DNA from: Paracoccaceae bacterium
Lineage (GTDB): Bacteria > Pseudomonadota > Alphaproteobacteria > Rhodobacterales > Rhodobacteraceae
Direction: 5' to 3'
DNA: 64,000 bases
Assembly: GCA_024642725.1 (NCBI GenBank)
Contig: JAHEAO010000011.1
Location: 1-64,000, forward strand
Shown here: piece after piece, positions 44,795-59,177 of the stretch
How the letters are laid out: each line of letters starts with the position of its first letter
How positions within the stretch are numbered: position 1 is the stretch's first letter
Position numbers and translations under genes: made by a program
Notes under the pieces: model-generated
What the model saw: the letters and a program-made list of their open reading frames with translations, nothing else
Database searches by the model: none
What the model was told of the DNA's origin: nothing

Positions 44795-45757
44795 TCAAAC
44801 CTCGACTTCGATCGCTATGCCCTTGGCAACCGCCAGATCGACCGCCGCCTTGGCGACCGCCAGATCCTGCAGGCCCACACCGGTGCCGTCGAACAGCGTG
44901 ATCTCATCGTCTGACGTTCGGCCCGGATGGGTGCCGTTGATGACCTCTCCGATTGTCGTGATGTCGGCGGCCTTGATCAGGCCTGACCCGATCGCGTGCT
45001 GCGCTTCCCCCAGCGTGATGGATTGCGCGACCTCGTCGGTAAAGACCGTGGCGCGGGCCAGAAGGGATGGCTCGACCTCTTGCTTGCCGATGGTGTCGGT
45101 GCCCATGCAGGCCAGATGCGTGCCGGGGCGCACGTGGGCATCCATAAGGGACGCGGCGGGCGACGAGGTGATGGTAATGATCACATCGGCCTCTGCTCCC
45201 AGCTCTTCAAGGCTGACGCCCTTGAACGGCAGGCCCAGTTCTTCCGCGACCTTGCCCAGCGTTGGCAGCATGTCGGGGTGGTAGTTCCACGCGACAACAC
45301 GTTCGAACTTGCGGGTCTTGGCCGCGGCGCGCAGCTGGAACCCGGCCTGATGACCGGCCCCGACCATGCCCAGAACTTTCGAATCCTTGCGGGCCAGCCG
45401 GTCAATCGAAACCGCCGAAGCAGCGGCGGTGCGAAGCGCGGTCAACAGATTGCCGCCCACCATCGCCGTCGGTCGCCCGGTATCGGGGTCGAACAGGTAG
45501 ACGGTCGACTGGTGGTTGGTGATTCCTCTGTCGGCATTTCCGGGAAAGTAGCCGCCCGCCTTGACCCCGAGATTGGACCCGGCGCGGTCAAGGCCGGATT
45601 TGAATCCGTATTGCCGGCCTTCGCCCAAAGCCTCGCGGATAACCGGGAAGTTATAGGCATCGCCCTTTGCCATTGATGCAAAGACGGCTTCGACCGCGGC
45701 AAAGGCCTGCTCAGCCGAGATAAGGCCCGCGATGGCGCGTTCCGGCACGATAATCAT
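44795..45757 (-). CDS. bhcD: Iminosuccinate reductase BhcD
   Basis: A 320-residue ornithine cyclodeaminase/mu-crystallin family NAD(P) enzyme. In the beta-hydroxyaspartate cycle it reduces iminosuccinate to L-aspartate, regenerating the amino donor used by BhcA. The nucleotide site is 'SKVLGMVGAGHQAGFQLRAA'. Other family features are 'GGNLLTALRTAAASAVSIDRLA' and 'DVIITITSSPAASLMDAHVRPGTHLACMGTD'. ATG 45757 has AAGGA seven bases upstream; the longer frame starting at 45799 is not needed. The call depends on the bhcABC neighbours as well as the family. Confidence 0.92.
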   Translation of the reverse strand: MIIVPERAIAGLISAEQAFAAVEAVFASMAKGDAYNFPVIREALGEGRQYGFKSGLDRAGSNLGVKAGGYFPGNADRGITNHQSTVYLFDPDTGRPTAMVGGNLLTALRTAAASAVSIDRLARKDSKVLGMVGAGHQAGFQLRAAAKTRKFERVVAWNYHPDMLPTLGKVAEELGLPFKGVSLEELGAEADVIITITSSPAASLMDAHVRPGTHLACMGTDTIGKQEVEPSLLARATVFTDEVAQSITLGEAQHAIGSGLIKAADITTIGEVINGTHPGRTSDDEITLFDGTGVGLQDLAVAKAAVDLAVAKGIAIEVEV

Positions 45758-45808
45758 GAAGAAATCCTTAATATTTTTTCCGGTATCGTTGTATATCAAT
45801 GACTTGCT

Positions 45809-45832
45809 GGGGCGTCCACGTGTGGACGCCCC
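45809..45832. repeat. Strong hairpin between bhcC and bhcD
   Basis: Eleven bases (GGGGCGTCCAC) and their complement are separated by only two bases, so a stem of at least nine bp forms. There is no T-run on the minus strand. It lies inside the operon and may set bhcD transcript levels or stability. Confidence 0.7.
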
Positions 45833-45838
45833 ACCGCA

Positions 45839-47002
45839 TCAATAGGCTTTGCCGCGGGCCGAAACCGGCCAGAGGGCTTCAACCTTGCCATTGCGGACGC
45901 CCACATACCAGTCATGGACATTGCAGGTCGGATCGCAATGTCCGGGCACCAGCTTCAGCTTGTCGCCGACTTTCAGCACCCCCTTGGGATCCTCAACCAC
46001 GCCATGTTCGTCCGAGCATTTGATGTATTTCACATCGTCGCGTCCATAAACGAACGGCAGCCCGCTATCGACAGACTGGGCTTTCAACCCGGCATCGACG
46101 ATCGCCTTGTCCGCCTTTGTATGGCTCATGACCGAAGTCAGGATGAACAGCGCGTTTTCCCATTCGCCGTGGTCGATCCGTTTGCCGTCCTTGTCGAGGA
46201 TGCGACCGTAATCGGCGTCCATGAAAGCATAGGACCCGCACTGAAGCTCGTTATAAACACCGGAGTTGCTTTCGAAGTAATAGCTCCCGGTGCCGCCGCC
46301 CGAAACCAATTCCGGCTTCAGCCCGATCTTGGTCAGCGCGTCGACCGCGTCCTTGACCTGAGCGATGGCGGCGTCAAGCTTGGCCTTGCGGTCCTCATAT
46401 TTGTCCATGTGCTGCATCGCGCCCTGATAGGCTTGGATGCCGCTGAATTTCAGTCCCGGCGCGGCATCGATCGCCTTGGCGATCTCAACCACGGCTTCGG
46501 TCGAGTTGACTCCGCAACGTCCGGCGCCGCAATCGATCTCGATGAAGCATTCCAGCGTCGTGCCGTGCTTTTGCGCAGCGGCGGAAAGTTCCGCCACGTT
46601 CTTGATGTCGTCAACGCAGACGATGATCCGCGAGCCAAGTTTCGGCAGGCGGGCAAGGCGGTCGATCTTGGCCGGATCGCGGACCTGGTTCGAGACCAGC
46701 ACATCCTTGATGCCGCCGCGCACGAAGACCTCGGCCTCGCTGACCTTCTGGCAGCAGACGCCCACGGCACCACCCAGCCTTTCCTGCAGCTTCTGCACGT
46801 CGACCGATTTGTGCATCTTGCCGTGGCTGCGGTGGCGCATGCCATGCGCCTTGGCATAGTCGCCCATCTTCTTGATGTTGCGTTCGAGCGCGTCGAGATC
46901 GAGGATCAGACAGGGCGTCTGGATGTCTTTTTCGTCCATGCCGGGCAGGGCAGGGACGTCATAGCCGACCTCGAGTGTCTTGATGTCTACGGGTGCGTTC
47001 AT
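45839..47002 (-). CDS. bhcC: 3-hydroxy-D-aspartate aldolase BhcC
   Basis: A 387-residue PLP enzyme of the D-threonine aldolase (DSD1-like, alanine-racemase fold) family. In the cycle it condenses glyoxylate and glycine to (2R,3S)-beta-hydroxyaspartate. The PLP lysine is Lys62 in 'MRHRSHGKMHKS' (canonical RPHxKTHK). 'VSGGGTGSYYFESNSGVYNELQCGSYAFMDADYG' and 'VPGHCDPTCNVHDWYVGVRNGKVEALWPVSARGKAY' hold the phosphate site and the metal-binding His/Cys pair. AAGGAG precedes the ATG. It directly follows bhcB by 16 bases. Confidence 0.95.
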   Translation of the reverse strand: MNAPVDIKTLEVGYDVPALPGMDEKDIQTPCLILDLDALERNIKKMGDYAKAHGMRHRSHGKMHKSVDVQKLQERLGGAVGVCCQKVSEAEVFVRGGIKDVLVSNQVRDPAKIDRLARLPKLGSRIIVCVDDIKNVAELSAAAQKHGTTLECFIEIDCGAGRCGVNSTEAVVEIAKAIDAAPGLKFSGIQAYQGAMQHMDKYEDRKAKLDAAIAQVKDAVDALTKIGLKPELVSGGGTGSYYFESNSGVYNELQCGSYAFMDADYGRILDKDGKRIDHGEWENALFILTSVMSHTKADKAIVDAGLKAQSVDSGLPFVYGRDDVKYIKCSDEHGVVEDPKGVLKVGDKLKLVPGHCDPTCNVHDWYVGVRNGKVEALWPVSARGKAY

Positions 47003-47018
47003 TGGGTTCTCCTTCGCC

Positions 47019-47981
47019 CTATTGCCAGGGCAGCTTGTCCAGATCGACGTTGCCGCCGGTGATGATGACGCCGACGCGCTTACCGGCGAAGACGTCCTTG
47101 TTCTTCAGTATAGTGGCCAGCGGAACCGCCGAGGACGGTTCCATCACCACGCGCAGGTGTTTCCAGGTCAACTTCATCGCGTCGATGATCTCGGGGTCGG
47201 ACGCGGTGAACATGTCGGCGACATGGTTCTTCACGAAATGCCAGGTCAGGTCCTTGAGCGGCACCAGAAGGCCATCGGCGATGGTCTTGGGGGCGTCGTC
47301 GGCGATGATATGACCGGCCTTGAAACTGCGGTAGGCGTCGTCGGCCTGCTCGGGTTCTGCCGCGATCACCTTGGTTTCGGGGGCGAGCGTGGACAGCGTC
47401 AGGCAGGTGCCCGAGATCATGCCACCGCCGCCGATGGGCGCGACGACGAAATCAAGGCCGTCCGTGTCCTCGACCAGTTCCTTGGAACAGGTGCCCTGTC
47501 CGGCGATCACGCGGTGGTCGTTATAGGGATGCACAAAATCGCCACCCGTGGCGGCCTGCACCTTGGCGAAGGCTTCTTCGCGCGATGAGGTCGAGGGCTC
47601 GCATTCGGTGATCTTGCCGCCATAGCGGCGAACCGTGTCCTTCTTAGCCTGCGGCGCGGTGCGCGGCATCACCACGTTGCAGGGGATGCCGCGAAGCATC
47701 GCGGCATAGGACAAACACGAGGCGTGGTTGCCCGAGGAATGGGTGGCCACGCCCTTTTTTGCCTGCTCCTCGCTCAGCCCGAAGACGGCGTTGGTGGCGC
47801 CGCGTACCTTGAAGGCGCCGGGCTCCTGCAGGTTCTCGCATTTAAAGAACAGCTGCGCGCCTGTCAGCTCGTTCAGGTAGTCCGAGGTCCGGACGGGCGT
47901 GCGGCGGATATGCGGCCTGATGCGCTCATGCGCGTCCAGCATGTCCTGATAGGTCGGGATATACATCGTCTCGTCCTTCAT
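47019..47981 (-). CDS. bhcB: Beta-hydroxyaspartate dehydratase BhcB
   Basis: A 320-residue fold-type II PLP dehydratase of the serine/threonine dehydratase family that converts beta-hydroxyaspartate to iminosuccinate. The PLP lysine is Lys58 in 'ENLQEPGAFKVRGATNAV'. 'SSGNHASCLSYAA' and the tetraglycine loop 'APIGGGGMISG' bind the cofactor phosphate. Relatives include threo-3-hydroxyaspartate ammonia-lyase; the bhc context decides the role. Its ATG overlaps the bhcA stop by four bases. Confidence 0.94.
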   Translation of the reverse strand: MKDETMYIPTYQDMLDAHERIRPHIRRTPVRTSDYLNELTGAQLFFKCENLQEPGAFKVRGATNAVFGLSEEQAKKGVATHSSGNHASCLSYAAMLRGIPCNVVMPRTAPQAKKDTVRRYGGKITECEPSTSSREEAFAKVQAATGGDFVHPYNDHRVIAGQGTCSKELVEDTDGLDFVVAPIGGGGMISGTCLTLSTLAPETKVIAAEPEQADDAYRSFKAGHIIADDAPKTIADGLLVPLKDLTWHFVKNHVADMFTASDPEIIDAMKLTWKHLRVVMEPSSAVPLATILKNKDVFAGKRVGVIITGGNVDLDKLPWQ

Positions 47982-49168
47982 GCGGCGGCTTTCTTCGGTT
48001 GACTTGTCGTCGTGCGATAATATTGCTGCGCGGCGGCGACGCCCGACCCCAGCTTAACATCAAGACCCAGATCAGCCATGACCATTTCCGCCGTCGCGAT
48101 GCCCGCGAGCGCCATCACGTCAGTCATAGAGCCAAGATGACCGATACGGAAGACTTTGCCGGCAACCTCGCCAAGGCCCGTGCCAAATGCGACTTGGTAG
48201 GACTTGGCGGCATGTTCGACGATGCGAGTCGCGTTGAATCCCTCGGGCGTGCGAATGGCGCTGACTGTATCCGAATACAGGTCTGGCGATGCGGCACACA
48301 GCTTCAAGCCCCAGGCGCCGACTGCCGCACGAACACCTTGGGCAATCCGCGCATGCCGGGCAAAGACATTCTCGAGCCCCTCCGCCAAAAGTTGGTTTGA
48401 AGCATAGTTGAGACCGTTCAATAGTCCAACCGGAGGTGTGTAGGGGAAGCCGCTCGCAGCGTAGCCCTTGGCCATGTCCCGGATGTCGAAGAAGGTGCGG
48501 GGCAGCTTTGCGCTCTCAACCGAAGCCATGGCTTTTTTCGAGAATGCGACAATCGCGAGGCCTGCCGGCAGCATGAACCCCTTTTGACTTCCGGTGACGG
48601 CAATGTCGACGCCCCAGTCATCCATCCGGAAGTCCATCGAGCCAATCGAACTAACACCATCGACGAGAAGCAGAGCTGGATGCTTTGCCGCGTCGAGAGC
48701 ACGCCGGACCGCGGCGATATCCGATTTGACCCCTGTTGCCGTTTCGTTATGCGTGGCCAGAACCGCTCTGATTTCGTGGCCGGTATCGGCCGTCAAGATC
48801 TCTTCATAGCGGTCGGCGGGAATGCCCTTGCCCCATGGAACCTCGACAACCGTCATGTTCAGGCCGTGGCGGTTGCACATGTCGATCCATCGATGGCTGA
48901 ACATCCCATTGCGCGCAGCCAGAACCTTGTCACCGGGGGAAAGTGTATTGGTCAGCGCAGTTTCCCAACCTCCGGTTCCGGTCGACGGGAAAAAGAAAAC
49001 TTCAGCGGTTTTCGATTTCAACACCTTCTGCACATTGCTGCGCGCCGGGTGAAGAATTTCACCAAACAGCGGTGAACGATGATCGAGCGTTGGCATGTCA
49101 CAGGCACGGCGCACTTCCTCTGGAATGTTTGTCGGTCCGGGAATGAAAACTGGGTTCTGGAAACTCAT
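47978..49168 (-). CDS. bhcA: Aspartate-glyoxylate aminotransferase BhcA
   Basis: A 396-residue PLP transaminase of the serine-glyoxylate aminotransferase (class V) family. In the cycle it aminates glyoxylate to glycine with aspartate, yielding oxaloacetate. 'FIPGPTNIPEEVRRACDMPTLDHRSPLFGEI' is the family N-terminus, and the PLP lysine is Lys196 in 'DIAVTGSQKGFMLPAGLAIVAFS'. GAGGAGG lies just before ATG 49168, so the longer frame to 49198 is not used. First gene of bhcABCD, divergent from bhcR. Confidence 0.95.
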   Translation of the reverse strand: MSFQNPVFIPGPTNIPEEVRRACDMPTLDHRSPLFGEILHPARSNVQKVLKSKTAEVFFFPSTGTGGWETALTNTLSPGDKVLAARNGMFSHRWIDMCNRHGLNMTVVEVPWGKGIPADRYEEILTADTGHEIRAVLATHNETATGVKSDIAAVRRALDAAKHPALLLVDGVSSIGSMDFRMDDWGVDIAVTGSQKGFMLPAGLAIVAFSKKAMASVESAKLPRTFFDIRDMAKGYAASGFPYTPPVGLLNGLNYASNQLLAEGLENVFARHARIAQGVRAAVGAWGLKLCAASPDLYSDTVSAIRTPEGFNATRIVEHAAKSYQVAFGTGLGEVAGKVFRIGHLGSMTDVMALAGIATAEMVMADLGLDVKLGSGVAAAQQYYRTTTSQPKKAAA

Positions 49169-49231
49169 GGTGCCCTCCTCACGGGTGTCAGAGTGCATAA
49201 TTTCCTACTGGTTCACGGAATGCAATTTTTT

Positions 49232-49246
49232 TGAAATGTTTTTTCA
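49232..49246. promoter_or_regulatory. Candidate BhcR operator, bhcA-proximal
   Basis: Inverted repeat TGAAA-N5-TTTCA in the bhcA/bhcR intergenic region. The same 15-base arrangement recurs near bhcR. IclR regulators bind such palindromes; BhcR is the obvious protein. Confidence 0.65.
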
Positions 49247-49292
49247 TTTTTTGACAAGCCGGATTATGCGGGGAATTTCAGGGGCTTGCTTT

Positions 49293-49317
49293 TTTCATAT
49301 ATTGAAATGTATTTTCA
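49293..49317. promoter_or_regulatory. Candidate BhcR operator, three alternating half-sites
   Basis: TTTCA (49293-49297), TGAAA (49303-49307) and TTTCA (49313-49317), each ten bases apart. It lies 17 bases before the bhcR start, so it could also mediate autoregulation. Confidence 0.65.
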
Positions 49318-49334
49318 GAAATGGGGGCGCGTAA

Positions 49335-50159
49335 ATGGCTGAGCCTAGAAAGCGTGGGCGACCGAAGGGTTTCCACGACAAGACAGAACAGAACACGATT
49401 CAATCCCTCGATCGGGCGATGGAGGTGCTGGAGCATCTTGCCGAAGTGCCTGGCCCGACGCTGACGGAACTGGCAGAGCGGTTGGACCAGTCACCGGCGA
49501 CGATCTACCGGATACTTGTCACCTTGCAGAACCGGGGGATGGTCGAAATCGAAAGCGAGCACCAAACCTGGTTCATCGGACCCAAAGCCTTTCTCGTCGG
49601 TTCATCCTTTCTGCGTCGCACCGGATTGGTTGAGCGCAGCCGGCCAGTCATGCGTTGGCTCATGGAAGAAACCGGGGAGACTGCGAACCTTGGCATTGAG
49701 CGACGCGATCAGGTTCTTTTCGTAAGCCAGGTAGAAACTCATGCATCGATCCGTGCCTTCTTTCCGCCTGGGACGCAATCGCCGATGCACGCATCCGGCA
49801 TTGGCAAAGCGTTGCTCGCGCAATATCCGGCTGCTCGTATCGACAAGATTCTGGCCGTTGGGCTAGAGCGATTCACGCCAACGACGTTCACAAACCCTGA
49901 TCTTCTGAGGCGTGAACTCAGAGAGATACATGAGCGCGGCTATTCAGTTGATAACGAGGAGCGCTCGGAAGGCATGCGGTGTATCGCCGCCGCCATATTC
50001 GACGCGACGGGCGAAGCCGTGGCGGGCGTTTCCGTCTCCGGCCCGGTTAGCCGGGTAACCATGGCGGATGTAGACCGGCTGGGGCAAGTCGTTGCGGGCG
50101 TCGCGCGCGAAATATCACTTGGGCTGGGCGCACGGGTCGGAACGGGAGCGGACGGGTAA
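49335..50159 (+). CDS. bhcR: IclR-family regulator BhcR
   Basis: A 274-residue IclR regulator, expected to control bhcABCD in response to glyoxylate (known for Paracoccus BhcR). The winged-helix domain is 'TIQSLDRAMEVLEHLAEVPGPTLTELAERLDQSPATIYRILVTLQNRGMVEIE'; the effector domain includes 'FFPPGTQSPMHASGIGKALLAQYP' and 'ERGYSVDNEERSEGMRCIAAAIFDATGEAVAGVSVSGPVSRVT'. The N-terminal 'AEPRKRGRPKGFHDK' is an AT-hook-like tail. GGGGGC is just upstream of the start. Confidence 0.94.
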   Translation: MAEPRKRGRPKGFHDKTEQNTIQSLDRAMEVLEHLAEVPGPTLTELAERLDQSPATIYRILVTLQNRGMVEIESEHQTWFIGPKAFLVGSSFLRRTGLVERSRPVMRWLMEETGETANLGIERRDQVLFVSQVETHASIRAFFPPGTQSPMHASGIGKALLAQYPAARIDKILAVGLERFTPTTFTNPDLLRRELREIHERGYSVDNEERSEGMRCIAAAIFDATGEAVAGVSVSGPVSRVTMADVDRLGQVVAGVAREISLGLGARVGTGADG

Positions 50160-50329: not shown

Positions 50330-51052
50330 ATGGAGGCATTGCAGAAATTGACAGAGTCCCGCGAAGCGACGATTCTTGCGACCTATCACAGTATTGAAGT
50401 GCCTGAGGCACCGCATTTCGGTCCCGGCATGATCAAGTCGATGAACGAAGGTCGATATGAGCATCGAGAGATTCAGGCCGGTCTTGCTGTGATCGGCCCC
50501 GGAGCGCGCATTCTTGAGATGGGCGCGGGGTCCGGTGTCGTCGGCGCGGCAATTGCAAAGAACTGCAAGGCTGAACGAGTCGTGTCGATAGAGGCCAACC
50601 CGAATTTGCTGCCCTATATCTCTGAACTGTACTTGCGCAACAACTTGGCAGATGTGATCGCTGTGCGCGACGGCGTCTTCTTGAGCGAACCAAACCCGCC
50701 GGCGGCAGTCGATTTCTTTCTGCGCGGTAACTTTCTGGGTTCGGGGCTGACAGTGATCAAGAACCCTGAGAAAGCGCGCAAGGTAACGGTGCCGACGATT
50801 TCTTATGACGCGCTGCGTGCGGAATTTCCCCACGATGTTATTGTAATGGATATCGAAGGGGCGGAACTGGAATTCCTGCGCCATGCCAACCTGGACGGGG
50901 TGCATACCATCGTTTCTGAAATGCACCGCGACATATATGGCCGCGAAGGCATGAAGGAGTGTCGTGCAAATCTTGCCAGATCCGGGTTCGAGATGGACGG
51001 TAAGAATTCAAAGGCCGGTGTCCACGTCTATTGCCGGAAGGCCGCTAAATGA
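50330..51052 (+). CDS. FkbM-family methyltransferase (first copy)
   Basis: A 240-residue class I SAM methyltransferase of the FkbM group, commonly acting on sugars or polyketides. The SAM site is 'GARILEMGAGSGVVGAAIAKNCKAERVVSIEANPNLLPYI', and 'VIVMDIEGAELEFLRHANLDGVHTIVSEMH' is the FkbM signature. The ribosome site before the ATG is poor. It opens a cluster with glycosyltransferases, so methylation of a glycan is plausible (inference). Confidence 0.85.
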   Translation: MEALQKLTESREATILATYHSIEVPEAPHFGPGMIKSMNEGRYEHREIQAGLAVIGPGARILEMGAGSGVVGAAIAKNCKAERVVSIEANPNLLPYISELYLRNNLADVIAVRDGVFLSEPNPPAAVDFFLRGNFLGSGLTVIKNPEKARKVTVPTISYDALRAEFPHDVIVMDIEGAELEFLRHANLDGVHTIVSEMHRDIYGREGMKECRANLARSGFEMDGKNSKAGVHVYCRKAAK

Positions 51053-51075: not shown

Positions 51076-53169
51076 ATGGCCAGGGCAGCTAAATGCGAAC
51101 CGAAAGCTCCGCCGAGGATCGCAGCAAATGCCGGCGAAGCCGCAAAGCTGGACGATTTCCTGTTGCCCGGCGAGTTCTGCGACGCCCGGTTCGTCCGGCG
51201 CTCCGACATCCTGTTCGTGACCTTCGACAATCTGGCATCGGTTGGGGAATACGATCCACCGCAGCCTTGGTTGGACGTCCGCACTGCGAAGAACGGTTTT
51301 TCCATTCTTGGGATCATGGCGAAGCGCAAGGACTGGTATCGCAATGCCTCTGGTCCGGAATTGTTGACCGGGCTGCGGGACGCAGGGTTCTTTGAGGGGT
51401 TCCGCAGGGTCGTCTTTACCGGCGCGTCGATGGGAGGATTTGCGGCGATCAGCCTGTCGTCCATCGTGCCCGGGAGCACCGTCATTGCCTTCAGCCCGCA
51501 AAGCACACTTTCGCGCGATATCGCTCCATTTGAAAAACGTTATCGCTATGCGCATAGGAAGTGGGACTGGACGAGTCCGGAATTTCTGGACGCCGCGGAC
51601 GCGGTGCCGCATGCCGAGGAGATCTTCCTCTTTTATGATCCCTTCGTACCCGAGGACCGGGCTCACGCGGACCGGCTGCAGGGGCCATCGGTGAGGCTGA
51701 TCAAATGCGGTCACTTCGGCCACAGGCTGATTCGGCAACTCAAGACTTGCGGGGCGCTTGACGCGGTCTTTCGCGATGTCGGGCGCGGCAGTTTTGATGA
51801 AGCGGCCTTTCGGAAATCTTTGCGGAAACGAAGAGAGGTGCGCCCGTGGAAGAAAGAGCTACTTGGGAACCTGTTAGCGTCGGGACATCAGAAACTGGCA
51901 TTGCGCGCGAGCGAGACATTTCTTGCCGATGAGCCGGGTGCGAAGTTCGCGAGGAAGGTCGTGGACGAAGCCGCGCAAGCGCTCGCAGCCAGTACCAACG
52001 CAGCCACGTCATCTCCGGAACCGGCAGAGCCGACCGATGCATCGGTTGAGAAATCGGATCTGGTTTCCGAAAGCGTTTCCAAGAATGGTCCTTTCAAGTC
52101 TGAAATCCTGGAACTTTCCAACGCGATTGTCGTGCCGGAACGAAATCATGACCGAAGGCTTGCATCCGGCGTGCTCTTGTCCGATCGGAGCTATTGCGAA
52201 TTGTCGCGGGCGTGGATACGGGCGGGAAAGTCCACGCCTGTGCCCTCGTTATCAAGTGACGAGAAGATCGAACGGCTGGAAGGACGGCACATGTTCGCCG
52301 GCCATATGCGCGGTCATTTCGGACATTTCCTGGTCGAGTCCACGGCGCGGCTCTGGGCGCTGGACCGTCTGCATGACCAGATCGACAGCGTATTGTACCT
52401 TCCTTACCGCGGCAGTGTGAAACAGACCCGGCGGGCGCTGTCCGCACACAAGAATTTCTTCGAGTTGCTCGACATCAAGGTGCCGATCCAGACCCATGGA
52501 ACCGCGATCGAGGTGGAGCATCTGATCGTCCCCGAACTCGGGTTCGGCTGGAAGGAGCGTTATGCGGGATCGCAAGGCTACCGGTCTTTCATGCGGGACC
52601 GTTTGGGTGAGAACATTGCACCTGACGGCGGGGAAAACCTCTATATTTCCAGGGCACAACTCGGAGCGCAGCGCGGTGGGGTGCTCGGCGAAACGGTGAT
52701 TGAGGATAACTTGCGTCTCCACGGATACGAGGTCTTCTATCCCGAGCAACATCCGATCGAAGTGCAGATCGCGCGTTACAGGGCTGCAAAGCGGATTGTT
52801 GCATTGGATGGTTCGGCGTTGCATCTCGCAGCATTCGTGATGCCCAAGGGTGGCAAGGTCGGGATCATCTTGCGCCGCTCGAACGCCAATGTCGCCGACT
52901 ACGTGCTCCAGTACCAGTCATTCTGCGGAATCACACCCGATGTGATCGACGTAATCCGGAAGGATTGGGTTTCGGCCGATGTGGCCAGGTCGGACTACCG
53001 CTCTGTTGGAGAACTTGATTTTGGCGATCTCTTTTCGCGGCTGAAATGGTTCGGGTACGTTCCGCCCGAGGCTGACCTGAGGTTACCGGACAAGGACGCC
53101 GTGTCCGAGATGCTAATGGCCTTCTCTGAGCGACGGGGAGAGGAGTTCACCGAACTACCGACGTCATGA
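51076..53169 (+). CDS. Alpha/beta-hydrolase fused to GT61-type glycosyltransferase
   Basis: A 697-residue two-part protein. Residues 40-225 look like an alpha/beta hydrolase: nucleophile elbow 'FTGASMGGFAA' (Ser118), Asp188 and His213 (CGHFGH) as candidate triad. A Ser/Pro/Ala-rich linker (about 290-345) follows. Residues 400-650 match the GT61/DUF563 glycosyltransferase family: 'HMRGHFGHFLVESTARLWALD', 'ENLYISRAQLGAQRGGVLGE' and 'KRIVALDGSALHLAAFVMPKGGKVGII'. The reading frame is continuous with no sign of an error. One enzyme may glycosylate and the other trim or deacylate; this is inference. Translation may couple to the FkbM gene 23 bases upstream. Confidence 0.8.
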   Translation: MARAAKCEPKAPPRIAANAGEAAKLDDFLLPGEFCDARFVRRSDILFVTFDNLASVGEYDPPQPWLDVRTAKNGFSILGIMAKRKDWYRNASGPELLTGLRDAGFFEGFRRVVFTGASMGGFAAISLSSIVPGSTVIAFSPQSTLSRDIAPFEKRYRYAHRKWDWTSPEFLDAADAVPHAEEIFLFYDPFVPEDRAHADRLQGPSVRLIKCGHFGHRLIRQLKTCGALDAVFRDVGRGSFDEAAFRKSLRKRREVRPWKKELLGNLLASGHQKLALRASETFLADEPGAKFARKVVDEAAQALAASTNAATSSPEPAEPTDASVEKSDLVSESVSKNGPFKSEILELSNAIVVPERNHDRRLASGVLLSDRSYCELSRAWIRAGKSTPVPSLSSDEKIERLEGRHMFAGHMRGHFGHFLVESTARLWALDRLHDQIDSVLYLPYRGSVKQTRRALSAHKNFFELLDIKVPIQTHGTAIEVEHLIVPELGFGWKERYAGSQGYRSFMRDRLGENIAPDGGENLYISRAQLGAQRGGVLGETVIEDNLRLHGYEVFYPEQHPIEVQIARYRAAKRIVALDGSALHLAAFVMPKGGKVGIILRRSNANVADYVLQYQSFCGITPDVIDVIRKDWVSADVARSDYRSVGELDFGDLFSRLKWFGYVPPEADLRLPDKDAVSEMLMAFSERRGEEFTELPTS

Positions 53170-53180
53170 GCAGGTTTTTC

Positions 53181-54935
53181 CTATCGATCGAAGACCAGCG
53201 TTCCGGTTTTTTCCATGCCGTCAGCAAGACCGAAGCCGTCCTTATTGAGCGCGGATGCAAGACGTAGCCCTTCTGGATCATCCGCGCCGAGCTGCCGGTC
53301 GGATACGATGATCCGCCGCAGTGAAGCCGAAGGGCATGTTGCCAGCATTGCCGCGTCAATTCGGTGATCACCAAGGAATAGCACAGTCGGCTTGAAATCC
53401 TGAATCAGGGCAGCAAGACCACTGGCCTGATCGGCGCCATCGGTCGCGAAGAACAAGGGGCCGTCGACGATCTTCAATCGTGGAGTGTCGCCCAGGCCGT
53501 TCAACTGCGCGGCTTCCCGTCCGAAATCGGCAAGAGCCCTTCGCTCTTCCTGTGCGAGGACGGTCAGATCTGGGAAGCATTTGCACGAAAGGATGGGCAG
53601 AAAACAGACCCCCGCGCCGACCTCCAGCAGACGATCCGCAGGAGCAAGAAGCTGGGCCCTGTACCGCGCCGCTCTGCGGTCGAATTTTCCCGATGCAACA
53701 TCGGCGAGGGCTGCAGGCGTGAATACCCTCGGGTCGACCGGAAGCAATACCTCGTGATTGGCGACGGTTTCAAAGGCAATATCGGTTGTGCGGTCAATGT
53801 GCCCCGTCAGGTACGGGCTGTTGTCAGCTTGCGAAGGATCAAACCCGGCAACACCAGCATTGCGGCGCTCTGCCTTCGGGCGGCTTTGCGATTTCTTTTC
53901 GACTTCGGACATCATTGCCGCGATCTTGGCAGGATCGCGCGCTTTAGGCGGTTTCGCTTCAATCTTGGTCAGCGGTATGTCGGAAGCGGCCAACAGGCTC
54001 TGTTTCAGTTCGGCATAGGCATCGGTCTTCTTGAAGTCGTCGAGCCGGGCTTCGATCCGGTCGAGCGCTTCGTTGTGCAGTCTATTTAGGACGGGATCGG
54101 TCAGGAGTTGAGTTGCTATCGCCGCGCGTTTGGCAGAGTAGCGAAGGATATTCGTATCCTTGACCTCGTTGCGGTCCTGCAGCGCCCAATAGTCGGCGTT
54201 GTATTTGTCTTTCTTCAGGTTGACGTTGCCGCGGAACTTTCGGACTGCATAGGCATCAATCGACTTGATGGCATAGTGGTTCATCTGCACCCAGTCATAG
54301 CCGATGGTGCGCCGGATGCTGCGCCAGCCGCGGAATTTGAAGTAATCCTCCATCGGCAGGCCAGACCCGTTCAGCCAGTGGATCGTGTCAGGAAAGTCGG
54401 TCTGCAAGTGCTTGTTCTTGATCGACGGGCGATGGATGCCAAGCTTCCAGTAGTCGGCATCGAATTTGAACAGAGTCTTTACCCCCCATCCCTTGTTCCA
54501 GAGCGGCGGGGCGGCATGGCAGTATTGTTCGGTCACCGGATCGCGGGACCAGTCGACAAGGCCGCCGGAGCCGAAGATGCGCCAAGTGACAACGATGCCG
54601 TTCGCGTCGCCGGCAGCAGAGAGCATACTGTCAAGCGATCCGTCGCCGTAGTTGATGCAGAGGAATTCGTCGGCATCGAAAACGAGCACCCAATCGCTGT
54701 CCTGCACGACCTTTTCGGCCTGCGCATGTTTGATGGCCGACGGCTGGGGTTTGATGCCTTCGGGGATGACATTGCGGCGGTGATGGCCAAGCCCTAGTTC
54801 TTCCAGGCGGATCAGCATGTCGTCGGTGCCGTCGGTGCAGTCGTTGGTATAGACCAAGATGTCGGTGAACCCAACCGCAAGGTGATGCGCGAACCATTCG
54901 ATCAGGTATGGCGCTTCATCTTTCATCATCGACAC
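53181..54935 (-). CDS. GT2-type glycosyltransferase with C-terminal Rossmann-like domain
   Basis: A 584-residue protein. Residues 1-300 are a GT2/GT92-like transferase: 'KDEAPYLIEWFAHHLAVGFTDILVYTNDCTDGTDDML' and DxD motif Asp87-Ala-Asp89 (VFDADEFL). A Lys/Pro-rich linker follows, then a region (about 425-580) with 'RLLEVGAGVCFLPILSCKCFPDLTVLAQEE', resembling a SAM-methyltransferase fold. The start is odd: the conserved KDE motif lies five residues in, the first start is GTG 54935, and an ATG 17 bases upstream (54952) is out of frame. A short N-terminal loss or sequence error is possible. Confidence 0.75.
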   Translation of the reverse strand: MSMMKDEAPYLIEWFAHHLAVGFTDILVYTNDCTDGTDDMLIRLEELGLGHHRRNVIPEGIKPQPSAIKHAQAEKVVQDSDWVLVFDADEFLCINYGDGSLDSMLSAAGDANGIVVTWRIFGSGGLVDWSRDPVTEQYCHAAPPLWNKGWGVKTLFKFDADYWKLGIHRPSIKNKHLQTDFPDTIHWLNGSGLPMEDYFKFRGWRSIRRTIGYDWVQMNHYAIKSIDAYAVRKFRGNVNLKKDKYNADYWALQDRNEVKDTNILRYSAKRAAIATQLLTDPVLNRLHNEALDRIEARLDDFKKTDAYAELKQSLLAASDIPLTKIEAKPPKARDPAKIAAMMSEVEKKSQSRPKAERRNAGVAGFDPSQADNSPYLTGHIDRTTDIAFETVANHEVLLPVDPRVFTPAALADVASGKFDRRAARYRAQLLAPADRLLEVGAGVCFLPILSCKCFPDLTVLAQEERRALADFGREAAQLNGLGDTPRLKIVDGPLFFATDGADQASGLAALIQDFKPTVLFLGDHRIDAAMLATCPSASLRRIIVSDRQLGADDPEGLRLASALNKDGFGLADGMEKTGTLVFDR

Positions 54936-55012: not shown

Positions 55013-55822
55013 TTATTCGAGTGCGGATTCAGCATCGATGCCCTGCTTTTCGCACATCCTCGCGGCATAGCTGCCGGGCATCGGGGCGTTCTTGCGCCAC
55101 CATGGTTTGGTGCCATTGGTATAGAGGTGAACCGATAGCGTTTCATCGGTGAAATGGCCTTCAACATGCCCGTGGGGGTCATAGAAAATGTCGTTCAGTT
55201 GGAAGGGCACGGGATATAGGACTTCTCGGGGCCTGGCCTGATCAAATATTCCTGTGACTTTCGCAAAATGTGTAAAGGCTTGCGGTCCAAAGGCCGTGCG
55301 CTCTGCCGCATAGATGCGGGCTGCATGCGACAGGTTCTCGGGTTGCCGATCATACTTCTTGCGCTGGTTCTTGTTCCACCATGCCGGATAGTCCGGAAGG
55401 TTCTCGTAATAGTCCAGAAGCTGGTCCATGACCTCGCACTGGCTCGGCAGTGCGACAACACCGCAATTCAGGGCGCCGTTCAGCCCGTGGACGCCAAATA
55501 TGTAGTCGTCGTCCGGAAAGGCACGGTGGCAGTAGGCGTCGCAATCGATCCAGACGGCACCGGTAGCGCGGATCATCTTGTAGCGGAAGACGTTGGACAA
55601 GAACGAGGGGCTGGTGTCGCCGACAAGTTTCATGTCCATGTCCATGATCTCGGCGGCGGGCCGGATTTCGACGCCATCTGGGGCATTGGTCAGCTCGTCT
55701 GTGCAGTAAAGTGTAGTCGGGTGCCCGGCAGCGACATGCGATCTGAGGCAAAGCTGGTTGAGATAATGCAATCTCTCACCAATCCATAGCGATGCCACCG
55801 GGCGTCTCTTGAGTTCTGCCAT
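55013..55822 (-). CDS. DXD-type glycosyltransferase (Gly_transf_sug family)
   Basis: A 269-residue glycosyltransferase with a sugar-binding DXD motif: 'LSNVFRYKMIRATGAVWIDCDAYCHRAF' (Asp94-Cys-Asp96). The early 'ASLWIGERLHYLNQLCLRSHVAAGHPTTLYC' and the later 'LNGALNCGVVALPSQCEVMDQLL' fit the family that includes OCH1-like and capsular transferases. I prefer ATG 55822, since the family starts at 'VASLWIG'; the longer frame reaches 55951. It precedes the GT2 gene by 77 bases on the same strand. Confidence 0.82.
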   Translation of the reverse strand: MAELKRRPVASLWIGERLHYLNQLCLRSHVAAGHPTTLYCTDELTNAPDGVEIRPAAEIMDMDMKLVGDTSPSFLSNVFRYKMIRATGAVWIDCDAYCHRAFPDDDYIFGVHGLNGALNCGVVALPSQCEVMDQLLDYYENLPDYPAWWNKNQRKKYDRQPENLSHAARIYAAERTAFGPQAFTHFAKVTGIFDQARPREVLYPVPFQLNDIFYDPHGHVEGHFTDETLSVHLYTNGTKPWWRKNAPMPGSYAARMCEKQGIDAESALE

Positions 55823-56019
55823 CTTGCGCCTGTTCCTATAGCCTCGGCTGCCAAGAACCGATCCCGGCGCCAAGTGTTGTTGACAGTGGGATACCCCAAA
55901 TCGCAGGGCGGCGGAACCAATTTTTGAGAGTCCGCGCATCGACAGGGCCACCCCGAACCTCTAGAATTTCTGGGAGCCAAGCAAACAGAATAAACGCAGG
56001 TTGGCGTGAGGACGGGGCT

Positions 56020-56721
56020 TTGGGCATAAGTATCAATATCGCGACGCACATGGCGCGCTGCGCACCGTTGGTGGAAGGCAAGACCGATGGCATCATGCTG
56101 GGCCGCCAGAAGATGCATTTTCGCCCCAACTGGGGCAAACGCCTAGTGCGCAACATGGCCGCCATGGGCATGGACGTGCAAGAAGAAGCGTTGTTCCAAG
56201 AAGATGGTTTCTGCGAGTCGTTCCTTGCCGCGATCGGATGGCCCGCGCTCAAAAGCCTCGATTTCTCGGATATCGAGGGGGCTGAGTTCATTCACGATCT
56301 TTCAGATCCGATCGGACCCGATTTGAGGCAGAGATTTGATCTGATCTACGATGGCGGCACGACTGAGCATGTTTTCGATATCGCGGCTGCATTCCGCAAT
56401 GTGCACGGTATGCTCAAAGATGGTGGCGTGTTCATGTCCTGTGTTGGCAGCGATGGGTGGTTCGGGCATGGATTCTACCAAGTGGGCCCCGATGTGCCGT
56501 GGCGCTACTGGGGTGCCACGCTGGGTTACGAGGTTCTGGGGGTCTGGACTCTCCCGCGCGTCAAGGACGTGGCGCCAAAGGAAATCGCCGACCCAACCTA
56601 TACTCGTCGTGGAGCCGACCAGCGTTTCGATCAGCCGCAATTTCTGTTCTACGCGGTGCGCAAACAGGGCGAGAAGGACAGTTATCCACCAACGATTCAG
56701 TCGCATTATGTCGACTATTAG
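56020..56721 (+). CDS. Class I SAM-methyltransferase-like protein
   Basis: About 233 residues. 'SLDFSDIEGAEFIHDLSDPIGPDLRQRFDLIYDGGTTEHVFDIAAAFRNVHGMLKDGGVFMS' is the late half of a Rossmann methyltransferase, though the usual GxGxG is not clear. 'GWFGHGFYQVGPD' and 'YEVLGVWTLPRVKDV' resemble methyltransferases in polysaccharide clusters. The start is uncertain: TTG 56020 follows a GAGGACGGGG sequence; ATG 56050 and an upstream in-frame start at 55924 are alternatives. Divergent from the DXD transferase. Confidence 0.65.
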   Translation: MGISINIATHMARCAPLVEGKTDGIMLGRQKMHFRPNWGKRLVRNMAAMGMDVQEEALFQEDGFCESFLAAIGWPALKSLDFSDIEGAEFIHDLSDPIGPDLRQRFDLIYDGGTTEHVFDIAAAFRNVHGMLKDGGVFMSCVGSDGWFGHGFYQVGPDVPWRYWGATLGYEVLGVWTLPRVKDVAPKEIADPTYTRRGADQRFDQPQFLFYAVRKQGEKDSYPPTIQSHYVDY

Positions 56722-56745
56722 GGTTTTGCAGTGGCGGGGGGCGGA

Positions 56746-57420
56746 ATGAAACCAACGGCGGAAGAACAGCTGCAAAAGCTGAAAAGGCGCCAGGATCGAA
56801 ACATGCGGGCGGCCCATGCCAAGGGACTCTTGCAAGGAATTGTCTCTATGCTCAAGCCTGGTGACATTGTTCTCGATTGCGGAGCAAACCTTGGAACAGT
56901 CACCCGGCCTCTTGCCGAGACGGGCGCGGTTGTTCATGCATTTGAGCCCGATCCATATGCATTTGGTAAGCTTCAGGAAGCCTTCGCCGATCACTCAAAC
57001 GTGGTGATGCATAACGCTGCCGTCGGTGTCGAGGCCGGTCACATCCGGCTGATGCGGGCCGCAAATTTTGATGAAAACCCAAAGGGGGCATCGGTCAAGA
57101 GCACGGTTGTTCCGGGTGGGCGCAAGATCAATGAGGACCTGTCCAATAGCATTGAAGTCGCACTGATCGACCTTCCGGCGATGATCACCGATTTGGTTGG
57201 GCGCCACGGTGAGATAGCATTTCTCAAGATGGACATCGAGGGGGCAGAGCTTGAGTTGCTTGAGCGGATGCTGGCGGAAGACTTGTTCAATGGCGTCCGC
57301 CTGACGGTTGCCGAAACCCATGAGAACAAGTTTCGCGATCTGCGGCCCCGTTTCGAGGCGCTACGGTCCGCGGTTTCCGACCGTTTTCCGATCACCAAGG
57401 TGAATCTGGACTGGATTTGA
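56746..57420 (+). CDS. FkbM-family methyltransferase (second copy)
   Basis: A 224-residue FkbM methyltransferase. 'DIVLDCGANLGTVTRPLAETGAVVHAFEPDPYAFGKLQEAF' binds SAM, and 'IAFLKMDIEGAELELLERMLAEDLFNGVRLTVAETHENKF' is the family signature. It differs in sequence from the copy at 50.3 kb, so the two are not a recent duplication. ATG 56746 has GGGGGGCGG just upstream. It follows the methyltransferase-like gene by 24 bases. Confidence 0.88.
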   Translation: MKPTAEEQLQKLKRRQDRNMRAAHAKGLLQGIVSMLKPGDIVLDCGANLGTVTRPLAETGAVVHAFEPDPYAFGKLQEAFADHSNVVMHNAAVGVEAGHIRLMRAANFDENPKGASVKSTVVPGGRKINEDLSNSIEVALIDLPAMITDLVGRHGEIAFLKMDIEGAELELLERMLAEDLFNGVRLTVAETHENKFRDLRPRFEALRSAVSDRFPITKVNLDWI

Positions 57421-57424
57421 GGCG

Positions 57425-58321
57425 CTATGCCTTGCCGACCTTGGTGACGCGGCGGACGCCCGCGTGCTTTTCCAAGAGCCGCTTGCCCAGCCCGCTCAGC
57501 CCGACCTCTTTCAGGATAGGCCACTGGCGATAGTGCACGGTATAGATTTCAAGCCCCTCGGGCAGAGGCTCGCCGCGCGACCGGCCGCCGAGGATGAAAT
57601 GTTGTTCCTGCGGCAGCATGTTCCAGTCGAGCCCGGCCTTGCGGATTGCCAGCGGCAGACTGATCTGGTCGAGATAGGGCCGCTTCTTCGGGATGTCGGG
57701 ATTGGCGTCGATTGTCTGGGCGATGTCCATCCAGACTTCCGGGAAGGATTTGCCCTCGGCGTTACGGTGGTGCTGCGGAAAGGTGAAAAAGCCGGAACTG
57801 AAATAGGGCAGTCGTTTCTTGCCCTTCTTCTGGCGCATGAGCATGATGCGTTCATCCGGCATCGCCATGCCGCAGGTGCGGTAGATCTCGTCCCAGATCG
57901 TCTGTTTGGCCCAGTTCATCGAGGCGGCGGGTGTCAGCGAGACATGCCCGGCTTTGACGATATTGGCGGGATCGTTGGGGCGGATGCACAGGATGTCGGA
58001 ATCCATGAATCCAGAGAACTCGGTGTCGCGGGGTTCGAGCGTGGCCAGAAGCTTGTTGCCATGCGGATATTCCGGGTCGAACCGTCCCTCGGCCCGGAAC
58101 GGCCGCACCTCGACCGACATGCGTTTGAGCACCGCGATCGCGGCCGGGTCGATTTCAGAGATCTTGTGTTCGGGGCAATAGCCCAGAAGCTCGACCCCGG
58201 GACCGAACTGTTCACGGAGCGAGGCGGCAAGGTAGCAGGCGATATACTGGTAGTTGGGCGGCTCGACGATGAAATACAGCGTCAGGCCGGGCGTGGCGGC
58301 GGCGGGGTGTGTGGGGGCCAT
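57425..58321 (-). CDS. Probable glycosyltransferase with DxD motif
   Basis: A 298-residue protein starting MAPTHPAAATPGLTLYFIVEPPNYQYIACYLAASL. 'EFSGFMDSDILCIRP' (Asp107-Ser-Asp109) looks like a metal- and nucleotide-sugar-binding DxD motif, and 'RLPYFSSGFFTFPQHH' and 'RPYLDQISLPLAIRKAGLDWNMLPQEQHF' are like GT8/nucleotide-diphospho-sugar transferases. I do not know the exact family. The longer frame to 58564 runs toward the imuA promoter and is rejected. It ends four bases from the FkbM stop, convergent. Confidence 0.7.
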   Translation of the reverse strand: MAPTHPAAATPGLTLYFIVEPPNYQYIACYLAASLREQFGPGVELLGYCPEHKISEIDPAAIAVLKRMSVEVRPFRAEGRFDPEYPHGNKLLATLEPRDTEFSGFMDSDILCIRPNDPANIVKAGHVSLTPAASMNWAKQTIWDEIYRTCGMAMPDERIMLMRQKKGKKRLPYFSSGFFTFPQHHRNAEGKSFPEVWMDIAQTIDANPDIPKKRPYLDQISLPLAIRKAGLDWNMLPQEQHFILGGRSRGEPLPEGLEIYTVHYRQWPILKEVGLSGLGKRLLEKHAGVRRVTKVGKA

Positions 58322-58449
58322 GCTCTGCCTCGGTCGTTTTCCGTGCGGGCGTGCGGCCCGGGTCCGGGTTGAGATTAACCGTGCACCGGCCTTGGCTTCA
58401 AGCCATCGCCTGAACATCCGGCATTTGACGCCGAGGGGAGTCTGGATTA

Positions 58450-58464
58450 GAACAAAAGAAGAAC
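58450..58464 (+). promoter_or_regulatory. LexA box (SOS operator)
   Basis: Perfect alphaproteobacterial LexA consensus GAAC-N7-GAAC, 18 bases before the imuA start. It should repress the imuA-imuB-dnaE2 cassette until DNA damage. Confidence 0.9.
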
Positions 58465-58481
58465 ATCTGCCGGGATTCTCT

Positions 58482-59177
58482 GTGACGTGCATCTCTTCTT
58501 CCATTGTGGCGCGGTCGGTGTCCGGGGCCGTGTCGGGGGCCTTGCCCGCGACCGGACTGGCCAAGACCCTGTCCGAGGTCTTTCCCGCGACGGCGGTCGA
58601 TGCCGGCGCCGCGGGCTTCGTGCTGGCCCGGATCCCGCGCAGCAGCCTGCCGGTGCTATGGGTGCAGGACCGGCTGTCGGGGAAAGAGGCGGGGCGGCCC
58701 TACCTGCCGGGCTTAGGTGCGCGCTGGCCCATCCTGCGAGTCGATGTGACCCGGCCTGCCGATGTGCTTCTGGCGATGGAAGATGGCTTGCGGTGCAAAG
58801 GGCTCGCCGCGGTGATCGGAGAGATCTGGGGCGACCCGCCTGCGCTAAGTTTCACCGCAACCAAGCGACTGGCCCTGCGCGCCGAGGCGGGCGGCATCGC
58901 CTGCTGGCTGATCCGGCGAGCCGCCAGCCCCGACCTCAGCGCCGCGCGGGATCGCTGGCGGATCGCCTCGCTGCCCTCGGCCCCGCATCCGCACGACCCC
59001 GCCAGCCCCGGCGCGCCGCGCTGGCAGGCGGAACTGTTCCGCTCGCGCCAGTCCCGGCCCGGGACATGGGTGGCAAGCTATGACCGGGCGGCGGATCGTG
59101 TCGATTTCTCTGCCCCAGCTCCCGATCGAACGCTGGCAGAGGGGGATGGAGCGTCAGGGCAACGCGCCGCCGGATGA
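58482..59177 (+). CDS. imuA: ImuA, SOS mutagenesis accessory protein
   Basis: A 231-residue RecA/SulA-like ImuA. It shows 'LAKTLSEVFPATAVDAGAAGFVLARIPRSSLPVLWVQDRLSGKEAGRPYLPGLG' and 'ILRVDVTRPADVLLAMEDGLRCKGLAAVIGEIWGDPPALSFTATKRLALRAEAGGIACWLIRR', typical for ImuA. It acts with ImuB and DnaE2 in damage-induced mutagenesis. GTG 58482 is preferred because it lies directly after the LexA box; GTG 58506 is possible. It overlaps imuB by about 98 bases. Confidence 0.88.
   Translation: MTCISSSIVARSVSGAVSGALPATGLAKTLSEVFPATAVDAGAAGFVLARIPRSSLPVLWVQDRLSGKEAGRPYLPGLGARWPILRVDVTRPADVLLAMEDGLRCKGLAAVIGEIWGDPPALSFTATKRLALRAEAGGIACWLIRRAASPDLSAARDRWRIASLPSAPHPHDPASPGAPRWQAELFRSRQSRPGTWVASYDRAADRVDFSAPAPDRTLAEGDGASGQRAAG

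Follow-up and report, generated by a model that had tools for sequence, protein, structure and literature searches.

What is the function of a protein that carries a hydrolase-fold domain and a GT61 glycosyltransferase on one polypeptide chain? The question is raised by a gene of a Paracoccaceae bacterium (assembly GCA_024642725.1), found in a window of 64,000 nucleotides, i.e., the whole stretch of DNA that was analyzed. A preliminary description of this DNA had proposed one continuous frame in which an alpha/beta-hydrolase half, a low-complexity linker, and a GT61 domain follow each other. All of these elements were recovered. The frame is uninterrupted, without an internal stop, and encodes 697 amino acids. 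The N-terminal half has the predicted hydrolase fold, and the GT61 domain is recognized at residues 415-594 with 54.1 bits against a cut-off of 27. The linker is rich in Ser, Pro, and Glu, and its pLDDT in the full-length model falls below 50 at residues 313-327 and 331-335. The features of the gene and of its neighborhood are collected in Table 1.

Table 1. The fused gene, its candidate functional residues, and the neighboring genes. Positions are those of the window; neighbor counts at the 27 fused loci refer to the sequence stretches examined.
Feature	Position	Strand	Evidence
FkbM-family methyltransferase, just upstream	50330..51052	+	PF05050 6.5e-9, TIGR01444 1.4e-12; near 9/27 fused loci
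Fused gene, 697 aa: hydrolase-fold N domain, linker, GT61	51076..53169	+	ORF, one-frame relatives
N domain, residues 1-300: predicted alpha/beta-hydrolase core (about 26-240) and C-terminal helices (242-299)	51076..51975	+	AlphaFold2
Ser118, putative nucleophile in GASMGG, flanked by strand 111-117 and helix 119-130	51427..51429	+	78/83 relatives, codon, model
Gln142, exactly Ser+24	51499..51501	+	Residue count in alignment A4; same offset as CsaC Q138 from S114 (PMC7501274)
Asp188, likely triad acid, just past strand 182-187	51637..51639	+	83/83 relatives, model
Asp194-x-x-His197, retained even without Ser and His216	51655..51666	+	83/83 relatives
His216, likely triad base	51721..51723	+	78/83 relatives; absent only with Ser118
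Linker, residues 312-340 (Ser 7, Pro 4, Glu 4 of 29)	52009..52095	+	Composition, low pLDDT
Predicted GT61 glycosyltransferase domain, residues 341-697	52096..53166	+	Pfam match 415-594 (52318-52857); POMGNT2 fold
GT2-like glycosyltransferase (PF13704) with C-terminal extension	53181..54935	-	Pfam; near 25/27 fused loci
Glycosyltransferase-like gene	55013..55951	-	No Pfam family; near 25/27 fused loci
Methyltransferase-like gene	55924..56721	+	PF08242 1.4e-5, below cut-off; near 7/27 fused loci
Second FkbM-family methyltransferase	56731..57420	+	PF05050 2.9e-14; near 11/27 fused loci
Gene without assigned family	57425..58564	-	No Pfam family; homolog near 23/27 fused loci

Relatives were searched in 394 genomes of the family, including the genome of the window, at a limit of E 1e-42 and with no more than two candidates per genome being scored. 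Matches to one or both halves are found in 160 of the 394 genomes. Besides the window, full-length matches in one frame are present in four of the 393 other genomes (58, 55, 53, and 46% identity). A first scan of genome contigs with the full protein gave no match. The scan with the N domain yielded 256 relatives, the best 80 of which were kept and represent 79 loci. The titles of these loci mostly name Rhodobacteraceae, Rhodobacterales, or genera thereof, and a few name only Alphaproteobacteria or Proteobacteria. The fusion is encoded in one frame at 27 of the 79 loci, the GT61 gene directly follows the N-domain gene at six, and 46 remain; as the loci are sorted by how similar they are to the window, 27/79 is no natural frequency. 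Among the 46, a GT61 gene occurs in a different arrangement in two (L113 and L133), and a contig end is reached in at least two (L091 and L148). The four fused family genomes are counted within the 27 loci because four of the 27 contigs match theirs in length, giving a total of the window plus 27. The incomplete L112 is included in this count; alignment A4 is without L112, L135, and L148, and alignment A5 is without L112. Isolates with the fusion include Roseobacter cerasinus, Fuscibacter oryzae, Gemmobacter straminiformis, and Frigidibacter oleivorans, and the fusion is also found in metagenome bins.

The preliminary description had taken relatives with two separate genes as a pointer to an assembly error. 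Such relatives do exist (6/79 loci). In addition, the third-position G+C content falls to 0.60 in the linker (55 codons) versus 0.70 in both domains. Both observations would fit an assembly or frameshift error that joins two genes. However, the fusion is found on 27 other contigs, from isolates as well as metagenome bins, and its linker differs in length among them. This rules out an error as a general account and leaves it highly improbable. Since fused relatives exist alongside the split ones, the fusion represents an architecture that occurs naturally.

The genes of the split pairs mostly overlap in different frames. The overlap is seven bases in L127/L004 and four bases in L065 and L066. 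It is 17 bases in L156 and L157 and about 40 bases in L094 and L099, if translation begins at the ATG seen immediately ahead of the stop. The two genes of L152 are separated by a gap of 12 bases. A quick tree groups the 27 fused rows with two split rows, one stand-alone row (L101), and one row at a contig end, with an SH-aLRT support of 89, which is below the 95 taken as firm. L155 is labeled in this tree as an OCH1-like fusion, though its two domains lie in separate ORFs. The tree needs four label changes, at least two of which are forced by its starred branches. One origin of the fusion followed by later breaks would be the simplest story, and the tree does not prove it. Since consecutive unfused pairs are also found outside the fused group (L127, L152, L156, and L157), adjacency probably came before fusion. 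Most likely, two neighboring genes of a small Rhodobacteraceae cluster, whose glycosyltransferases and methyltransferases would build or decorate a surface glycan, gave rise to the fusion.

Within this cluster, the glycosyltransferase-like gene that ends at 55951 is one that we take to be OCH1-like. Its true start is probably about 43 codons further in, since most matches begin at query positions 43-47. Seven cluster proteins of the window were scanned against Pfam and NCBIfam, and no kps gene was identified among them. Next door, at 44795-50159, lies a beta-hydroxyaspartate cycle cluster consisting of BhcD, BhcC, BhcB, BhcA, and the regulator BhcR, each of which scores over its own NCBIfam equivalog cut-off. 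A second GT61 gene is located elsewhere in the same genome.

The AlphaFold2 model of the N domain, built on an 83-sequence alignment, has a pLDDT of 93.8 and a pTM of 0.91. The predicted fold is that of the alpha/beta hydrolases. All of the 1000 aligned chains reach a Z of at least 8, and, judged by their titles, nearly all of the 50 structural neighbors listed belong to the hydrolases, esterases, or lipases. Hydropathy gives no clear membrane segment, the highest 19-residue value (1.6) falling over the hydrolase core. At the level of sequence profiles, no Pfam family exceeds its cut-off in the N domain. Abhydrolase_6 (PF12697) reaches 15.3 bits in the window domain against a cut-off of 26.3, and Asp2 (PF16929) is not listed for it and appears in one of 35 relatives at E 0.43. 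When weak matches with E up to 1 are counted in the 35 members, Esterase (20) and Abhydrolase_6 (17) are the most frequent. NCBIfam gives no match to the N domain or to the whole protein at the limits used.

The catalytic triad is most likely Ser118-Asp188-His216. The preliminary description had named Ser118, Asp188, and His213. Ser118, which forms the nucleophile elbow, and Asp188 stand, and His213 was set aside as the base, as it is His in 39 of the 83 aligned relatives versus 78 of 83 at position 216. In the model, His216 follows strand 206-210, and the Ser-acid-His order falls on the expected elements. Ser118 and His216 are lost or kept together: both are present in 78 and neither in five of the 83 relatives (A4), and both are present in 28 and neither in seven rows of a more diverse set of 35 (A1). 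Asp188, Asp194, His197, Trp87, and Arg89 are invariant in the 83 relatives. The spacing from Asp188 to His216 is 28 in 74 of the 78 triad-bearing rows. Ser118, Gln142, Asp188, Asp194, His197, and His216 are found in every one of the 27 fused rows (the window and 26 fused relatives). The same residues except Gln142 were scored in a hand-picked set of distant relatives from Acinetobacter and other bacteria (A6) and are present in 17/17. Two relatives are not part of this set: L169, a KpsE-like fusion without the Ser, and L168, whose elbow and Gln are retained and whose alignment around Asp188 is unsafe.

The Gln at Ser+24 is present in 78/78 triad-bearing and 1/5 triad-less rows of A4, and in 28/28 triad-bearing and 6/7 triad-less rows of A1. 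It is also kept in a triad-less paralog of the same genome. This conservation in triad-less rows suggests that the role of the residue may be structural. In CsaC, Q138 likewise lies 24 residues after the nucleophile and is hydrogen-bonded to the Ser, and the Q138A substitution costs about 97% of the activity (PMC7501274). According to the same report, the Gln-extended triad is unusual, and the Gln is also found in uncharacterized proteins. Its authors raised the question of whether the addition of a Gln to the Ser-His-Asp triad is a general route from esterase to transferase (PMC7501274). A control was taken from the window's own genome, in which 13 of 18 Abhydrolase_6 proteins contain 14 GxSxG sites and the other five are without GxSxG. 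None of the 14 sites has a Gln at Ser+24. The control is small, with a few per cent expected by chance; it indicates that this Gln is not universal in the superfamily, and nothing further.

Foldseek places antigen 85C, a mycolyltransferase, first and CsaC, a capsule O-acetyltransferase, second (E 6.9e-7) for the N domain. The top row of VIA-align is an uncharacterized protein of S. aureus. It is followed by 6oyc_B, a chain of the Gap123 complex that is presumably the Asp2 homolog Gap2 (Z 14.6, rmsd 3.6, 206 aligned), and CsaC reaches a Z of 14.2 (rmsd 4.1, 204-207 aligned). Ordinary esterases are tied with CsaC and 6oyc_B, their Z lying within 1, and the fold alone thus does not settle the function of the N domain. 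Searches of PDB sequences, by profile and by single sequence, found neither CsaC nor the Gap123 complex at E up to 10, and no convincing link of the N domain to any solved structure. The best matches in two of these searches are designed helical repeats that align to the C-terminal helices, and they were set aside.

The C domain is predicted from its sequence profile and its model to be a GT61 glycosyltransferase that transfers a sugar. PF04577 (E 2.6e-14) is the sole Pfam family of the whole protein. In the structural ranking, POMGNT2 occupies ranks 1-6 (Z 17.2-17.9, rmsd 4.1-4.7, 281-306 residues). Its best match has a Z of 17.9 over 293 residues, and the next row, at Z 15.6, belongs to the other half of the protein. 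Structure prediction is confident overall for both halves. The pTM of the full-length model is 0.57; together with the low confidence of the linker, this means that no fixed arrangement of the domains is predicted. The stretch aligned to residues 290-345, which is 56 residues long in the window, ranges from 31 to 82 amino acids in the 27 fused rows.

The N-domain family is also seen in other contexts. The distant relative L169:1471-3534, in which the Ser is replaced by Gly, is fused to a BexC/CtrB/KpsE-like protein. The best match of this partner is BexC/CtrB/KpsE (3.4e-78), with 263 bits against a cut-off of 437.5, which it does not reach. Another distant relative adjoins a KpsS-like gene (PF05159, 4.7e-74, over the cut-off). 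By sequence, these two relatives would tie the family to ABC-type capsule export. Fusions of the N domain to FkbM (L065) and to a glycosyltransferase-like module (L075, L076, L077, L153, and L154) are also found. On a plasmid of Phaeobacter inhibens, a stand-alone N gene lies inside a glycosyltransferase/FkbM cluster. Two further plasmid genes were retrieved with the Acinetobacter relative as the query. One of them, in Alloyangia, occurs with GDP-mannose, rhamnose, and sulfotransferase genes, and the other, in Sinorhizobium, with glycosyltransferases that adjoin a pair of HlyD and calcium-binding genes. On pSymB of Sinorhizobium meliloti (L199:857-12975), the relative ends a run of glycosyltransferases that starts beside an HlyD-type secretion adaptor and a calcium-binding protein, an arrangement that might serve the glycosylation of a secreted protein. 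Thioclava plasmids carry a relative beside sulfatase-type genes. The Thioclava gene L160:11905-12837 is annotated as phosphoadenosine phosphosulfate reductase; its sequence places it in the hydrolase-fold family, and the label looks wrong.

Some observations concern the partners and the paralogs. FkbM-GT61 fusions, which join the same pair as the neighbors in the window, are seen in L073:5634-7886 (by profile) and in L012:712-2520 (by eye). The GT61 proteins L133:5103-6986 and L072:3470-5920 have roughly 330 and 450 extra N-terminal residues, respectively, which give no Pfam match at E 0.05. The paralog in the window's own genome (L174:8508-9500, G000:C111) has lost Ser118 and His216 and keeps Asp188, Asp194, and His197; it adjoins a gene that resembles, by eye, the GT2 gene of the window. 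Together with L026-L031 and L077, this triad-less paralog appears to form a pseudoenzyme branch. In a marine Vibrio, a GT61 gene is listed in a Kps-type capsule cluster with an O-acetylated polysaccharide, and the passages cited mention no fused form (PMC11641403).

The reading that we prefer, with a probability of about 0.55, is that the protein combines a cytoplasmic O-acyl(acetyl)transferase with a GT61 enzyme, both of which act on the same surface glycan. The N domain would be an O-acyltransferase of the alpha/beta-hydrolase fold, most likely an acetyltransferase, located in the cytoplasm. With His216 and Asp188 activating it and Gln142 positioning it, Ser118 would accept the acyl group of a thioester, for example acetyl-CoA. 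The acyl group would then be handed to a sugar hydroxyl in place of water. The GT61 domain would add a sugar to the same growing glycan, and the flexible linker would keep the two active sites on one substrate, thereby coupling the two reactions.

Three points favor addition of the acyl group over its removal: the Gln at Ser+24, the folds closest to that of the N domain, and the gene context of the family, which is one of surface glycans and capsules. The same points disfavor the deacylation or proofreading of the acceptor proposed in the preliminary description, which was right about the fusion and both domain types. The next most probable reading, though an improbable one, is nevertheless an esterase that strips the acceptor of an acyl group, either ahead of the GT61 reaction or following it. 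The fold and the triad are typical of esterases, the tied structural neighbors listed are mostly esterases or other hydrolases, and Esterase and Abhydrolase_6 lead the weak profile matches. However, the transferase feature of CsaC, the Gln at Ser+24, is present in all triad-bearing rows of A4 and at no site of the small control. The gene neighborhoods also look biosynthetic, and no acyltransferase that could supply the ester was identified in the scan of the seven cluster proteins, of which two are without a Pfam match.

A role of the N domain chiefly in glycan binding or in the docking of GT61, with the triad being secondary, is unlikely. Relatives without Ser and His suggest that the fold alone is useful. 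The paralog branch without Ser118 and His216 (7/35 and 5/83 rows, and the own genome) keeps Asp188, Asp194, and His197, and the KpsE-like fusion is also without Ser. In the fusion itself, however, Ser118, Asp188, and His216 are kept in 27/27 rows, so the triad is under selection there. The acyltransferase could also use a thioester or ester other than acetyl-CoA, such as an acyl carrier, a lipid-linked sugar, or a long-chain acyl group as in antigen 85. That antigen 85C is the first Foldseek match speaks for such a donor. Antigen 85 works outside the cytoplasm, whereas the hydropathy profile here has no clear membrane segment, and we regard this donor as quite unlikely.

Each part of the protein is of a known kind. 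As far as searched, within open-licence PMC literature, the combination and the unnamed N-domain family are new, and no earlier description of the N domain-GT61 fusion was found there. The family provides many candidates for the question on the Gln-extended triad raised by the authors of CsaC (PMC7501274), and natural triad-less paralogs are available for comparison, four of the five in A4 having also lost the Gln. The fusion to GT61 points to a reaction partner of the N domain. Its recurrence in related bacteria suggests one tool for both decorating and extending a surface sugar. If true, the acyltransferase reading would give a function to proteins that are now labeled hypothetical or 'phosphoadenosine phosphosulfate reductase'. 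A broader view can be offered only tentatively. The N domain may represent a large, unnamed alphaproteobacterial family of acyltransferases with a Gln-extended triad that serves as a plug-in for surface glycan assembly. Its fusion partners would be GT61, further glycosyltransferase-like modules, FkbM, and, for a Ser-less form, a capsule export protein. The acyl group of the GT61 fusion might act as a switch for whether or where GT61 extends the chain.

Several known systems resemble one half of the protein or the other. POMGNT2, a GT61 enzyme, shares PF04577 and the fold with the C domain, and the added acyltransferase-like domain is present only here. On the side of the N domain, ORF5 of E. 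coli K15 has an SMGG-type elbow and, as printed, an Asp253-His281 spacing of 28, which is the same as here; its activity is inferred in the source paper (PMC7387560). ORF5 and CssE/OatC are alpha/beta-hydrolase capsule O-acetyltransferases encoded by stand-alone genes, and they are likened to the N domain by description, not by sequence. Asp2/Gap2 of the accessory Sec system (PDB 6oyc), which acts on the GlcNAc of serine-rich adhesins, is a hydrolase-fold O-acetyltransferase that works beside glycosyltransferases. It belongs to a Gram-positive secretion system, whereas the N domain here is fused to its glycosyltransferase. In streptococci, O-acetylation of GlcNAc by Asp2 blocks later glucosylation (PMC7948813). 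By analogy, a regulatory coupling of acylation and glycosylation in the fused protein would have a precedent.

CsaC of Neisseria meningitidis serogroup A (PDB 6yuo, 6yuq, and 6yus) shares with the N domain the alpha/beta-hydrolase fold, predicted here, as well as a Ser-His-Asp triad, the Gln at Ser+24, and a polysaccharide gene context. In the second arm of CsaC, the His (H201) lies three residues after the acid Asp. Here, His197 lies nine residues after Asp188 and three after Asp194, so that the assignment of the acid and of the arm is tentative. Because of this offset, and because PDB sequences give no link, we propose that the N domain may work like CsaC and do not claim that it is CsaC. 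CsaC is a stand-alone tetramer (PMC7501274), whereas the N domain described here is fused to a glycosyltransferase.
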